IMG/VR virus record: IMGVR_UViG_3300004463_000618 | Span: 1 to 40,452 of that record | Direction: 5' to 3' (one strand) | DNA length: 40,452 nucleotides | From: a virus | Shown here: in pieces, positions 1 to 40,452 of the stretch | Position numbering within the stretch: position 1 is the stretch's first letter | How the letters are laid out: each line of letters opens with the position of its first letter | Translations under genes and position numbers: made by a program | Notes under the pieces: model-generated | Database searches by the model: none | What the model was told of the DNA's origin: nothing | The model's input: the letters and a program-made list of their open reading frames with translations, nothing else

Positions 1-359
1 AGGATAGCGAGCTTTTCGTCTCTTTGGAATTGGTCATATACAGAGCAGTGGATAGCATAAGCTTTTTGATGTAGTTTATTCTGACATAATAACTTTTCTC
101 TTCTATCTGCAAGTATTGCTTTAACAGTTTCATAAACATCACAAAACTCAAGATTATGTTTTGACCAATGTAGAATCATTTTTGGATTATAAAAGTATTT
201 ACCACAAAAGCCATTTAAATTAATGCTGTCTTCATTTTTTACCCAGTCAATCATTTGGGTTGCAATTTTAGACAAGTCGGTATGTGGTCTTCCGCCATTA
301 TTTCCTAATGCGTTTTTATTTCCGAGAGGAGCGCCGCAACATCCTGGTTTACCAGCCAT
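1..359 (-). CDS. terS: Terminase small subunit, N-terminal part (runs off window start)
   Basis: The ATG lies at 359-357, and 119 codons plus two bases run off the left edge without a stop. The N-terminus, MAGKPGCCGAPLGNKNALGN, is the Gly/Asn/Lys-rich opening common in phage small terminases, which recognise the packaging site and hand DNA to the large subunit. The visible end (...RDEKLAIL) would continue naturally into the open frame at the right window edge (EFEAKLKSNE...) if one base were added at the junction. The assignment rests on this N-terminal style and on terL lying next in the same direction. No structure or homology search was run, so the name is probable rather than certain. Confidence 0.65.
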   Translation of the reverse strand, partial: MAGKPGCCGAPLGNKNALGNNGGRPHTDLSKIATQMIDWVKNEDSINLNGFCGKYFYNPKMILHWSKHNLEFCDVYETVKAILADRREKLLCQNKLHQKAYAIHCSVYDQFQRDEKLAI

Positions 360-1540: not shown

Positions 1541-1879
1541 TTATTTTTCTTTCTTTAACTTTCTATCAAATTCTAATACCGTCTTAAAACCACGCTCTAC
1601 TTCTTCTTCAAAAACATGCATGCTTTGATTGCAGTATACCGGGGTGCAGTAATTGCCGGAACAGTTTTTTTGATTCGCCATATAGCGATAATAAAGAAAA
1701 GAATTGTTTTCACCAGGAGAAAAGAAGAGCTCTACCTCGACGTCGGGATAACCAGGCTTAATCTTCTCGCGAAATCTTAAAATTTTTTCTTTACAAGACG
1801 AAACATTGCGCTCGTAATCCTCGTGAAGTCTCGATGAAGCCTTTTTAGCCTCTATTTTATTAAATTTTTTAATATCCAT
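1541..1879 (-). CDS. Hypothetical protein (112 aa)
   Basis: This charged 112-residue protein has a Lys-rich N-terminal helix (MDIKKFNKIEAKK), a likely beta section around VEVELFFSPGENNSFLYYRY, a Cys trio (NCSGNYCTPVYCN) and a Glu/Lys-rich C-terminal helix. Its ATG lies inside the last codons of the replication gene, an 11-base overlap, so it is probably translationally coupled to it. No family is recognised. Its place between the replication gene and the SSB-like gene suggests a DNA-metabolism accessory, by context only. Confidence 0.7.
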   Translation of the reverse strand: MDIKKFNKIEAKKASSRLHEDYERNVSSCKEKILRFREKIKPGYPDVEVELFFSPGENNSFLYYRYMANQKNCSGNYCTPVYCNQSMHVFEEEVERGFKTVLEFDRKLKKEK

Positions 1880-2795
1880 GTATGTCTACAACCTTTCCGT
1901 TTAGTTTATTCTCTTCTTCTTTCTCAATATAAGGAGTAATAAAAACTTCCATGAATCTTCTTTGAAATGCTTCTGGAATCATAGTTAGAGATAATTCTTT
2001 CCCATCTGCTTTATCACAAATAAAGTTGCCAGAAAAACTTAGATGATTGAAAATACCGGGGTTGTCGTCGAAGATTTCCTTCTGAACCCAGGCACGATTT
2101 ATTTCAACATAGGCAAGCTCTCTTCTCTTTGCAATCGCAACGATGTAGCCGACAGGATCGCGTATCATGCTTTGATCTTGAGCAAGAAAGGCAGAAACAC
2201 CACGGGCGATATCAACCTCGGCATATTTTTTCGTTAGGCGAATCTTATCAAGCACAGAAATTTGATAAACTTCTTCAAGGCAACTCCAAATCTTTTCCTC
2301 ATTTGAAGGAACCGAACCAACCAAACCATCGGAAGCCGCGGAACTGGAAGGGGTTTGGGGTTGGTTCCTTCTTATATCTTCTTTCTTTATATCTTCTTTG
2401 TGGTTAATGGTTGGTTGATGGTTGGTTAATGGTTGGTTATTTGGTTGGTTATTGATTTTGTAAAAACGCTCTGTCACCCATATGTAGCAAGTAAAATGGT
2501 TGGTTAAACTGTTGGTCGACTTTTTGAGCAAACCTGCCTTTAACATGATTTTCTGTTGGTTACGAAAGATATTTTCTGTGAGAAAACATTCCTTCGAAGA
2601 TGTGAGGCGACCAGATATAAATTCAAATGGAGCTAACGTTATTTCGCGACCTTCTATTACCACTTTATGAGGTTGAGAGCGGCAACGTGAAAAGGCCCAA
2701 ATGACATATTTGAACATGTGTTCAGAATCAAACCAACCATTCTCACGAAAGTATTTAGGTACTGGAGTTTCAAAAAAATAAGGAATTTCAGACAT
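1869..2795 (-). CDS. Probable replication initiation / replisome-organiser protein
   Basis: The N-terminal ~110 residues resemble the winged-helix domain of phage and plasmid replication proteins (FKYVIWAFSRCR..., then TENIFRNQQKIMLKAGLLKK). A low-complexity linker of Asn/Gln/Pro/Thr repeats (NNQPNNQPLTNHQP) and Lys/Glu follows near residues 115-150. A C-terminal helical domain (~165-300) may bind a helicase or loader, as in DnaD/DnaT-like organisers. The repeat linker is also typical of such proteins. The ATG at 2795 has a strong SD (TGAGGTGG), but that SD is the 3' arm of a hairpin in the leader. Promoter, SD-sequestering stem and an overlapping antisense RNA upstream suggest dosage control of the kind used for replication initiators. 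Confidence 0.6.
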   Translation of the reverse strand: MSEIPYFFETPVPKYFRENGWFDSEHMFKYVIWAFSRCRSQPHKVVIEGREITLAPFEFISGRLTSSKECFLTENIFRNQQKIMLKAGLLKKSTNSLTNHFTCYIWVTERFYKINNQPNNQPLTNHQPTINHKEDIKKEDIRRNQPQTPSSSAASDGLVGSVPSNEEKIWSCLEEVYQISVLDKIRLTKKYAEVDIARGVSAFLAQDQSMIRDPVGYIVAIAKRRELAYVEINRAWVQKEIFDDNPGIFNHLSFSGNFICDKADGKELSLTMIPEAFQRRFMEVFITPYIEKEEENKLNGKVVDIHGY

Positions 2796-2908
2796 ACCAC
2801 CTCACAAAAGAGTTGATTTTTCTTCTGTGAGGTGTTACAATAAGAGTGTTGGAGTTCTTATTGTTCTCACAGTTTAAACAGTCGCGACGGCAAATCGCGA
2901 CTGTTTTT
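2796..2908 (-). promoter_or_regulatory. Structured leader that can sequester the SD of the replication gene
   Basis: On the minus strand the leader holds three stems: CAGTCGCGA/TCGCGACTG (2879-2903), ACAATAAGA/TCTTATTGT (2837-2864) and CACCTCACA/TGTGAGGTG (2798-2834). The 3' arm of the last is the SD of the gene starting at 2795. CTGTGAG at 2866-2872 can instead pair with CTCACAG at 2825-2831. That nests the middle hairpin and would free the SD. The two pairings are mutually exclusive, a switch-like arrangement. The pairing is read directly from sequence; the regulatory meaning is inferred. Confidence 0.6.
2813..2841 (+). promoter_or_regulatory. Promoter for the antisense RNA
   Basis: TTGATT at 2813-2818 is followed, after exactly 17 bases, by TACAAT at 2836-2841, a good sigma-70-type match. 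It faces the strong plus-strand terminator at 2876-2912 and no protein-coding gene, so its product would be a short RNA starting near 2848. Confidence 0.55.
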
Positions 2909-2912
2909 TTTT
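2848..2912 (+). ncRNA. Putative ~65-nt antisense RNA to the replication-gene leader
   Basis: The RNA is inferred between the promoter at 2813-2841 and the terminator hairpin with a nine-T tail. It would be fully complementary to the 5' part of the minus-strand leader, including the CTGTGAG segment needed to keep the replication-gene SD free. Binding should therefore release the anti-SD arm and close the SD. Antisense RNAs with this arrangement control plasmid replication genes. No ORF is present in it. The exact 5' end is a guess from promoter spacing. Confidence 0.5.
2876..2912 (+). terminator. Rho-independent terminator (plus strand)
   Basis: AAACAGTCGCGA (2876-2887), a seven-base loop CGGCAAA, and TCGCGACTGTTT form a 12-bp stem followed by an uninterrupted T run to 2912. 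It is directional: the minus strand has only TTT before AAACTG. No plus-strand gene lies upstream, which is why a small RNA is proposed. Confidence 0.75.
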
Positions 2913-2914
2913 GT

Positions 2915-2943
2915 ACTATACCCCTCACAGCTTTTCTAGTCCA
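2915..2943 (-). promoter_or_regulatory. Candidate promoter of the replication gene
   Basis: On the minus strand TGGACT (2943-2938) and TATAGT (2920-2915) are separated by 17 bases, giving a start near 2908, just before the first leader hairpin. The spacer holds CTGTGAGG, the same word found in the leader and SD. It could be an operator or another pairing partner. Confidence 0.45.
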
Positions 2944-2956
2944 TTTTTTCCTAATA

Positions 2957-3268
2957 TTATTTACACCAGCAATACACTGGAGAGCCCTTAGCTTGTGATC
3001 TCTTTGTGTTCGTCTTGATGCTAATTTTTGTTCTTGAAATTTCCGTAGAAACGAGGAATCTTTTCCCTTCAAGAAAGGAAAGGATCGGGAAGAGAGGGTT
3101 AGTTTCTTTATTCTGGGTTTCGAAGATAACGGGGATTTTGGCGAGTTCCAAGTTGCAGATTTCTTGAACAAAGAGTAGGGCTGGTTCACCATAATCAGAA
3201 AACCTTGAAACGCATTCGTCGCAGATGTCAGCCTCTTTTAAATGAAAGATACTTCGCTTGTGGTTCAT
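2957..3268 (-). CDS. Hypothetical Cys-containing protein (103 aa)
   Basis: The start at 3268 has SD AAGGAATC six bases upstream. The N-terminus has HLKEADICDECVSRF (a CxxC pair) and the C-terminus ends VYCWCK (CxC), so the four cysteines could form one zinc site across the chain. The middle, PVIFETQNKETNPLF, looks beta-rich. No family is recognised. It precedes the replication-gene promoter by under 20 bases. A longer overlapping frame (2788-3192) has an unnatural Lys/Ser/Arg-rich composition and is not favoured. Confidence 0.6.
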   Translation of the reverse strand: MNHKRSIFHLKEADICDECVSRFSDYGEPALLFVQEICNLELAKIPVIFETQNKETNPLFPILSFLEGKRFLVSTEISRTKISIKTNTKRSQAKGSPVYCWCK

Positions 3269-3326
3269 GAGATTCCTTAAAATAAGATTGCTTATATAGA
3301 TCTTTTCTTTGTCTTTTCATAGGCAT
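3228..3326 (-). CDS. Possible basic 32-aa peptide
   Basis: MPMKRQRKDLYKQSYFKESH opens a short frame ending at TGA 3228, preceded by a good SD (AAGGAATCCTC then ATG). The SD and start context nearly duplicate those of the next gene (AAGGAATCTC, ATG). It overlaps that gene's first 41 bases in another frame. It may be a real leader peptide or a duplicated ribosome-binding site. Length and composition give no function. Confidence 0.35.
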   Translation of the reverse strand: MPMKRQRKDLYKQSYFKESHEPQAKYLSFKRG

Positions 3327-3419
3327 GAGGATTCCTTTTTTGAGAGTGCATCATGCGCCAGAGAGCAGCGCGGGGGTCACTGCTCTTTTACGACTTTAGA
3401 AAATAATTAGCTAGTAGAA

Positions 3420-40063: not shown

Positions 40064-40306
40064 ATGGAAGGCATAGAAGATAAAGACAAAGAAAGTAAAG
40101 TAGTAAAAATACCAGGTAAAGAAGATAAAGAAGTAAGTGGTAATTTAGCTTCATATTGTCCCTCTAAGGAAGAGTTGAAACAGATCATAGAGGAAATGAT
40201 TAAAAACTACGAGAAGTTACCACAGCATGCGATGCTGCAGCCTGTGACGCATTATGATGTTTCTTCGCTATTGTTCATATTGTCATCAATGCTGCGTGTA
40301 TCTTGA
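40064..40306 (+). CDS. Small protein opposite the terS-terL gap (80 aa)
   Basis: AGGGGGGT lies about ten bases before ATG 40064. The N-terminal 30 residues are Lys/Asp/Glu-rich; the rest, CPSKEELKQIIEEMIKNYEK, LPQHAMLQPVTHYDVSSLLF, ILSSMLRVS, is well structured and resembles a short conserved phage protein (LP-x-HAM-x-PVTHYD-x-x-SLL). It fills the 260-base gap between terS and terL on the opposite strand and overlaps the terS 3' end by 55 bases. It may be a regulator. An antisense effect on terS mRNA is also possible. Confidence 0.6.
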   Translation: MEGIEDKDKESKVVKIPGKEDKEVSGNLASYCPSKEELKQIIEEMIKNYEKLPQHAMLQPVTHYDVSSLLFILSSMLRVS

Positions 40307-40452
40307 CGATCTTGATTATCTTTATAGGTTCGTTTCGCTTCTTTGCATGCTTCTTGGCGATTACGCATTTGAAATAGGATCGCTTCTAGGCGCTCTATGT
40401 CGTCTTGTTTAAAAGATTGTTGTTCATTAGATTTTAGTTTGGCTTCGAATTC
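40252..40452 (-). CDS. terS: Terminase small subunit, C-terminal part (enters from window end)
   Basis: An open frame enters at the right edge and ends at TAA 40252: EFEAKLKSNEQQSFKQDDIE, RLEAILFQMRNRQEACKEAK, RTYKDNQDRQDTRSIDDNMN and the end NNSEETS. It is helical with a polar tail, as expected for a small-terminase C-terminus, and terL follows in the same direction. The gene at the left edge lacks just this part. Reading across the join needs one extra base (CT + N), giving ...KLAIL-EFEAKLK and a total of ~186 residues. Confidence 0.6.
   Translation of the reverse strand, partial: EFEAKLKSNEQQSFKQDDIERLEAILFQMRNRQEACKEAKRTYKDNQDRQDTRSIDDNMNNSEETS

Follow-up and report, generated by a model that had tools for sequence, protein, structure and literature searches.

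Organization of the replication region

The DNA analysed here, called the window throughout, is the whole of IMG/VR record IMGVR_UViG_3300004463_000618 at its full length of 40,452 bases. Because terminase, portal and major head proteins are encoded in it, the window was read as the genome of a tailed phage. No tRNAs were found in the window, and no terminase relative of >60% identity was found among named phages or plasmids. One relative, L003 (IMGVR_UViG_2651869516_000061; terminase 73% identical), has an identifier unlike those of metagenomes and may be an isolate or single-cell genome. Open frames are cut by the record boundary at both ends of the window (1-359 and 40252-40452), and the terminase gene would lie ~3 kb beyond the initiator gene only in a circular or permuted genome, with which the gene order of relatives agrees.

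A first-pass annotation had proposed an antisense-RNA switch in the leader of a replication gene. The promoters, the terminator stem, the Shine-Dalgarno (SD) sequence and the motifs CTGTGAG and CTCACAG were all located where it had placed them; the stem closing the SD, which it had given as 9 bp, was found to extend over 14 bp (2798-2811 with 2821-2834). The features of the region are as follows.

1869-2795, minus strand: putative replication initiator gene, 308 aa, with a winged-helix N-terminus, a repeat-coded linker and a variable C-terminus
2406-2516: iteron-like array of AATGGTTGGTT, five copies at spacings of 11, 11, 12 and 55, inside the linker of the initiator gene
2797-2804, minus strand: SD sequence TGAGGTGG
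2798-2811, minus strand: element 3, holding most of the SD and pairing with element 2 in the predicted closed form
2813-2818 (TTGATT) and 2836-2841 (TACAAT), plus strand: candidate antisense promoter TTGATT-17-TACAAT with an extended -10 TG
2821-2834, minus strand: element 2, the shared arm, predicted to pair with element 1 (open form) or element 3 (closed form); the CTCACAG at 2825-2831 is complementary to CTGTGAG
2837-2864, minus strand: central hairpin (2837-2845 with 2856-2864), which would bring element 1 beside element 2
2848-2912, plus strand: putative antisense RNA of ~65 nt, its start placed from the -10 and its end from the terminator
2866-2872, minus strand: element 1 with the sequence CTGTGAG, pairing with element 2 in the predicted open form and lying under the antisense RNA
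2876-2912, plus strand: intrinsic terminator of the antisense RNA, with a 12-bp stem (2876-2906) and ending in a run of nine T
2943-2938 (TGGACT) and 2920-2915 (TATAGT), minus strand: candidate sense promoter TGGACT-17-TATAGT
2957-3268, minus strand: upstream gene of 103 aa in the same operon as the initiator gene, without a family match

The complement of the antisense terminator forms hairpin I of the mRNA leader, and the sense mRNA is expected to start at ~2908, the base of this hairpin. Small genes similar to the upstream gene also precede the initiator gene in L084, L087 and L091, as read by eye, and a Cro/CI-like helix-turn-helix (HTH) gene is located upstream in the window. At 3361-3390 on the plus strand, upstream of gene 2957-3268, a GC hairpin with a trailing TTTTA looks like the terminator part of the switch; a signature scan detected no complete switch at this site.

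The window initiator protein had no Pfam or PHROG match and was placed in the nine-member family A5. In an AF2 model, residues 8-113 were predicted confidently and the N-terminal ~105 residues formed a winged helix. The best BFVD fold matches were replisome organizers, DnaD-domain proteins and lambda GpO-N-terminal proteins; initiator structures such as 4pt7 were matched insignificantly (E 0.39), and no member of family A1 matched RepA_N (PF06970) in Pfam at E <= 1. The iteron-like array is a probable origin, and arrays of other sequence with an 11-12 bp spacing were found at matching gene positions in L084, L020, L087, L091, L092 and L011. The winged helix, the replisome-organizer fold matches, the linker repeats and the arrays in relatives led us to read the product of 1869-2795 as a likely initiator whose origin would lie inside its own gene.

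Promoter- and terminator-like sites in the window were close to background, with 5 promoter-like sites between 2000 and 4000 against 4.4 expected and 3 terminator-like sites against 1.7 expected, and a single sequence proves little on these features. Hence, relatives were needed for a decision. The predicted cost of opening the SD in the window rose from 12.0 to 19.2 kcal/mol once the antisense-covered upstream part of the leader was removed (p = 0.003, which is the floor of 300 shuffles).

Conservation of the leader in relatives

When the window region was used as a DNA query against phages and plasmids, no match was returned, and single-protein searches with the window initiator were likewise negative. 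Terminases were 63-74% identical in the best 80 of ~200 loci; three of those terminase-related loci carried initiator homologues, and profile scans detected homologues in seven further distinct loci. The comparison set therefore consisted of 11 leaders, including that of the window, chosen by initiator homology alone; only these 11 are unbiased, the seven phages from the blind scans described below having been selected partly on pairing.

The leaders had little common sequence and one anatomy, in which the sense promoter is followed by hairpin I (the antisense-strand terminator), element 1, the central hairpin, element 2 and element 3. Element 2 lay inside the spacer of the antisense promoter, and element 3 covered the SD together with the start codon. 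An antisense-strand terminator was detected at the same place in all 11 homology-chosen leaders (shuffled sequences: mean 0.1, maximum 2), and an antisense promoter was present 38-44 nt before the ATG in 10 of them (shuffled: mean 1.1, maximum 5; the test required a -10 at -36 to -46). The spacing of this promoter was nearly always identical among the 10 leaders; in L092 the promoter was shifted. The putative antisense RNAs of the relatives would be 65-91 nt long. Sense promoters at hairpin I were also enriched, with a mean score of 7.44 in 18 leaders against 6.18 +- 0.27 in shuffled sequences. At 3655-3975 of L092, upstream of the initiator gene, a tandem pair of similar GC hairpins is flanked by A-rich sequence, a pattern suggestive of duplication of the antisense terminator region.

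Removal of the antisense-covered part raised the SD opening cost by 3.4-9.2 kcal/mol in 10/11 leaders (each p <= 0.033; combined p = 7e-13). The exception was L011, examined like the others over a -13..-4 window, possibly as a result of its SD lying further upstream. Element 2 was able to pair with either element 1 or the SD/start region in every one of the 11 leaders, and the element-2 bases used by both partners numbered 134, compared to a mean of 31 and a maximum of 63 in 200 shuffles. Relatives that kept the gene and lost the pairings, a finding that would have counted against the switch, were not encountered in this set.

Covariation in related genomes had been put forward as a check on the leader. 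RNAalifold, run on six alignable leaders with no structure supplied, recovered both hairpin I and the stem that closes the SD. Two-sided changes affected 12 of the 25 pairs returned; the antisense terminator stem had such changes in 7 of its 13 pairs. Cells were 86.7% paired for these six leaders, compared to 74.0% after shuffling and 38-51% when the sequences were slid. The SD-stem helix by itself exhibited only modest covariation in these six sequences; the same two stems were returned after addition of L025, and the SD stem covaries in A3/A6. A U-turn (YUNR) loop motif was sought in hairpin I and was not consistently present. Overall, the paired sequences vary among phages and complementarity is maintained, and the arrangement occurs across relatives far beyond chance. 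Relatives of different sequence reproduce the predicted logic first proposed for the window, namely that binding of antisense RNA over CTGTGAG would release CACCTCACAG and thereby close the SD.

Occurrence of the switch before different initiator genes

A signature scan of 6466 starts produced 20 matches, all on the initiator strand. In an independent scan, matches were obtained at 13 of 1052 starts on the terminase strand, at none of 621 on the other strand and at none of 1052 after shuffling, and relaxed settings applied to 43 records gave 28 matches compared to 3 in shuffled sequence. These blind scans identified seven additional phages with copies of the switch. Six of the new copies (L059, L010, L025, L038, L045 and L052) precede genes matching PHROGs replication initiation, DnaD-like helicase loader or O-like families; the seventh, in L051, precedes a gene for 166 aa with weak HNH matches. 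Relaxed matches in G023, G032, G034 and G040 likewise precede such initiator-type genes. Two other relaxed matches, in L142 (before a RecE-like frame) and L160, were treated as noise, the genes concerned not being initiators.

Altogether, the switch was present in the window phage and in no fewer than 17 relatives whose replication genes differ. In L059 and L052, hairpin I and the flanking DNA are common, the initiators differ, and the sequences of elements 2 and 3 differ yet pair. Since the new copies precede different initiator-type genes, the switch, as judged from sequence, is a cassette and is not tied to a single initiator family.

Several further arrangements were observed. In L084, a second copy (3170-3275; TTGATT-17-TACAAT, opening cost 6.6 rising to 12.0) lies before a gene for 91 aa that is itself upstream of the initiator gene, and this phage may contain two antisense switches. 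In L086 (2110-2590), a 118-aa gene without a family match lies between the leader and the initiator gene, with the switch preceding the 118-aa gene, an arrangement that suggests control of the entire operon. Otherwise different switch-bearing genes (L048, L059, L045, L051 and L052) start alike, for example with MSDSISDTYN, MTNSCSDTYN or MSHLESDTYN, as if the cassette included the first codons.

Proposed mechanism

Sequence and comparison together show the positions of the promoters and terminators, alternative pairings maintained by compensatory change and several different initiators downstream. We consider it highly probable that a cis-encoded antisense RNA, acting on an RNA switch in the leader of the initiator mRNA, controls initiator translation and so exerts negative feedback on replication. 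The best reading of the leader is an antisense-induced sequestration of the ribosome-binding site, which would limit an initiator whose own gene contains iteron-like repeats.

The mRNA would begin at hairpin I. In the nascent leader, element 1 would pair with element 2 around the central hairpin, and the SD would emerge open. If antisense RNA bound first to hairpin I and element 1, element 2 would be left free and could capture element 3, so that the SD, and in many cases the start codon as well, would be closed. As every genome copy would make antisense RNA, more copies would mean less initiator, which amounts to negative feedback.

Predicted folds were consistent with this sequence of events. 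With the SD forced open, the leaders folded element 1 on element 2, and in the absence of the antisense-covered part the SD was closed. For transcripts ending before element 3, pairing of elements 1 and 2 was predicted in 18/18 leaders. In the free window mRNA the closed form was favoured at equilibrium (-29 versus -16 kcal/mol), and hence the switch would have to act on the nascent transcript. We propose kinetic control, in which the nascent leader is open unless captured first by antisense RNA. Production of the antisense RNA, this kinetic mechanism and a function in plasmid-like prophages are what we infer from the conserved arrangement.

Lifestyle and alternative explanations

The first-pass annotation had suggested a phage-plasmid lifestyle. 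For the group as a whole this found some support: tyrosine integrase (PF00589) was detected in none of 43 records, some of which may be incomplete, and ParA scored over the cut-off in 4/18 switch-bearing records compared to 0/25 other relatives (~p = 0.025 by a rough hypergeometric count; variant switches may be present among the 25, and the records include fragments). The ParA carriers are G003, G004, G007 and G009 (L158, L159, L166 and L170), whose proteins are small ATPases with a clear Walker motif, GGxKGGTGKTTxATNL; G004 also has a PF00239 resolvase. A ParA-like match in G010 was rejected, as the protein looks like a DnaB-type helicase. No integrase, ParA or resolvase was found in the window itself. 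A plasmid prophage state is likely for part of the group and may also apply to the window phage, in which the switch may have a copy-number role.

The same switch could instead time or cap initiator synthesis during lytic growth, or provide superinfection immunity, and not maintain a fixed copy number of a plasmid prophage. The missing integrase, ParA and resolvase genes of the window would suit such a role, as would the precedent of lambda OOP, a lambdoid antisense RNA located by replication genes and involved in a developmental decision (PMC5869508). However, ParA-type genes occur in four switch-bearing relatives of a group devoid of tyrosine integrase across its 43 records, and the anatomy fits plasmid rep control; both roles could coexist. 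We regard lytic timing or immunity as a substantial possibility, although one we would not expect to prevail. Operation as DNA operators for a repressor or the initiator, with the RNA pairings a by-product, is very unlikely. Inverted repeats (I2 and I15) do overlap both promoters, and the Cro/CI-like HTH gene is located upstream; however, the sequence, length and internal loops of the repeats vary among phages with complementarity retained, the SD stem includes G-U pairs, the repeats are unlike the iterons and element 3 is always on the SD/start.

The sense and antisense promoters are face-to-face and ~70 bp apart in the leaders, which could also indicate a mainly transcriptional interference in which RNA pairing is minor. 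This would leave unexplained why, in every leader, element 2 has complementarity to element 1 as well as to element 3, and we consider it very unlikely. Chance assembly of weak consensus matches, suggested by the background levels of promoters and terminators in the window, is refuted by the conservation of the arrangement in 18 leaders and its near-absence from shuffled and opposite-strand controls, and retains a negligible probability.

Antisense control of the initiator thus remains the preferred reading. A wider proposal is that this large group of uncultured tailed phages with genomes of ~40 kb (~200 loci; terminase relatives at 63-74% identity) includes many plasmid prophages, that an exchangeable antisense-switch cassette has recombined before several unrelated initiators and diversified in sequence into incompatibility or immunity groups, and that it constitutes a new class of phage regulatory RNA; this is plausible, and we would stop a little short of calling it probable. 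If real, the switch would offer a sequence signature for plasmid prophages lacking an integrase and a basis on which incompatibility or immunity of phages could be tested, and would represent a single RNA control cassette retained while the controlled protein was exchanged.

Comparison with known systems

Antisense-RNA control of copy number is a textbook feature of plasmids. In IncFII (CopA) and IncI/IncB (RNAI) plasmids, an antisense RNA limits initiator translation via a leader peptide or a pseudoknot. The phage switch resembles these systems in the proposed limitation of initiator translation by antisense RNA; no ATG-initiated leader peptide was found between the inferred mRNA start and the rep ATG of the window, where only short TTG/GTG frames were seen by inspection. 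In pT181, antisense RNA decides between two leader folds and the induced fold is a transcription terminator. The phage RNA would similarly select one of two leader folds, but the induced stem extends into the SD/start and, unlike a terminator, lacks a following U run. Antisense control of the pT181 type is covered in PMC5703833.

Searches against Rfam families produced no match above the gathering score, only chance matches. No report of antisense copy-number control on a protein initiator of a tailed phage was found in the open-licence literature, and no such case was noted in passages of a 2025 review of phage sRNAs (PMC12197685). Lambda OOP is comparable as a short, terminated antisense RNA beside a phage replication gene. 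However, OOP overlaps the 3' end of cII and not the O leader (PMC5869508) and has no initiator SD switch, whereas the putative RNA of the window maps to the leader that separates ORF 2957-3268 from the initiator gene. In extrachromosomal mycobacterial prophages, replication itself depends on a region from which a non-coding RNA is expressed (PMC7157519). Those prophages offer a parallel, in that control of replication in a plasmid-like prophage involves a non-coding RNA, but here the antisense RNA would control a protein initiator.

The closest likeness was to the staphylococcal RepA_N plasmid pSK41, compared here by its published description. Its RNAI is an antisense RNA of ~83 nt whose complement in the rep leader lies ~100 nt before the start, and RNAI binding is proposed to induce an RBS-sequestering stem-loop without transcription attenuation; the origin lies inside rep, and the winged-helix initiator is related to DnaD (PMC5703833). 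The phage switch would be similar in the size and distance of the antisense RNA, in the RBS sequestration and in having a DnaD-like winged-helix initiator; for the in-gene origin, the iteron-like repeats of the initiator gene are a candidate counterpart. By sequence, an antisense gene with its own promoter and terminator is present in the rep leader, and sequestration of the RBS upon antisense binding is predicted thermodynamically with shuffle controls. In contrast to pSK41, the switch is found in tailed phages, before several unrelated initiators, and with no RepA_N Pfam match. Because neither RepA_N membership nor homology at the level of the RNA family was found, we regard the phage switch, by analogy, as working like the pSK41 control but as neither homologous to it nor a member of that system.
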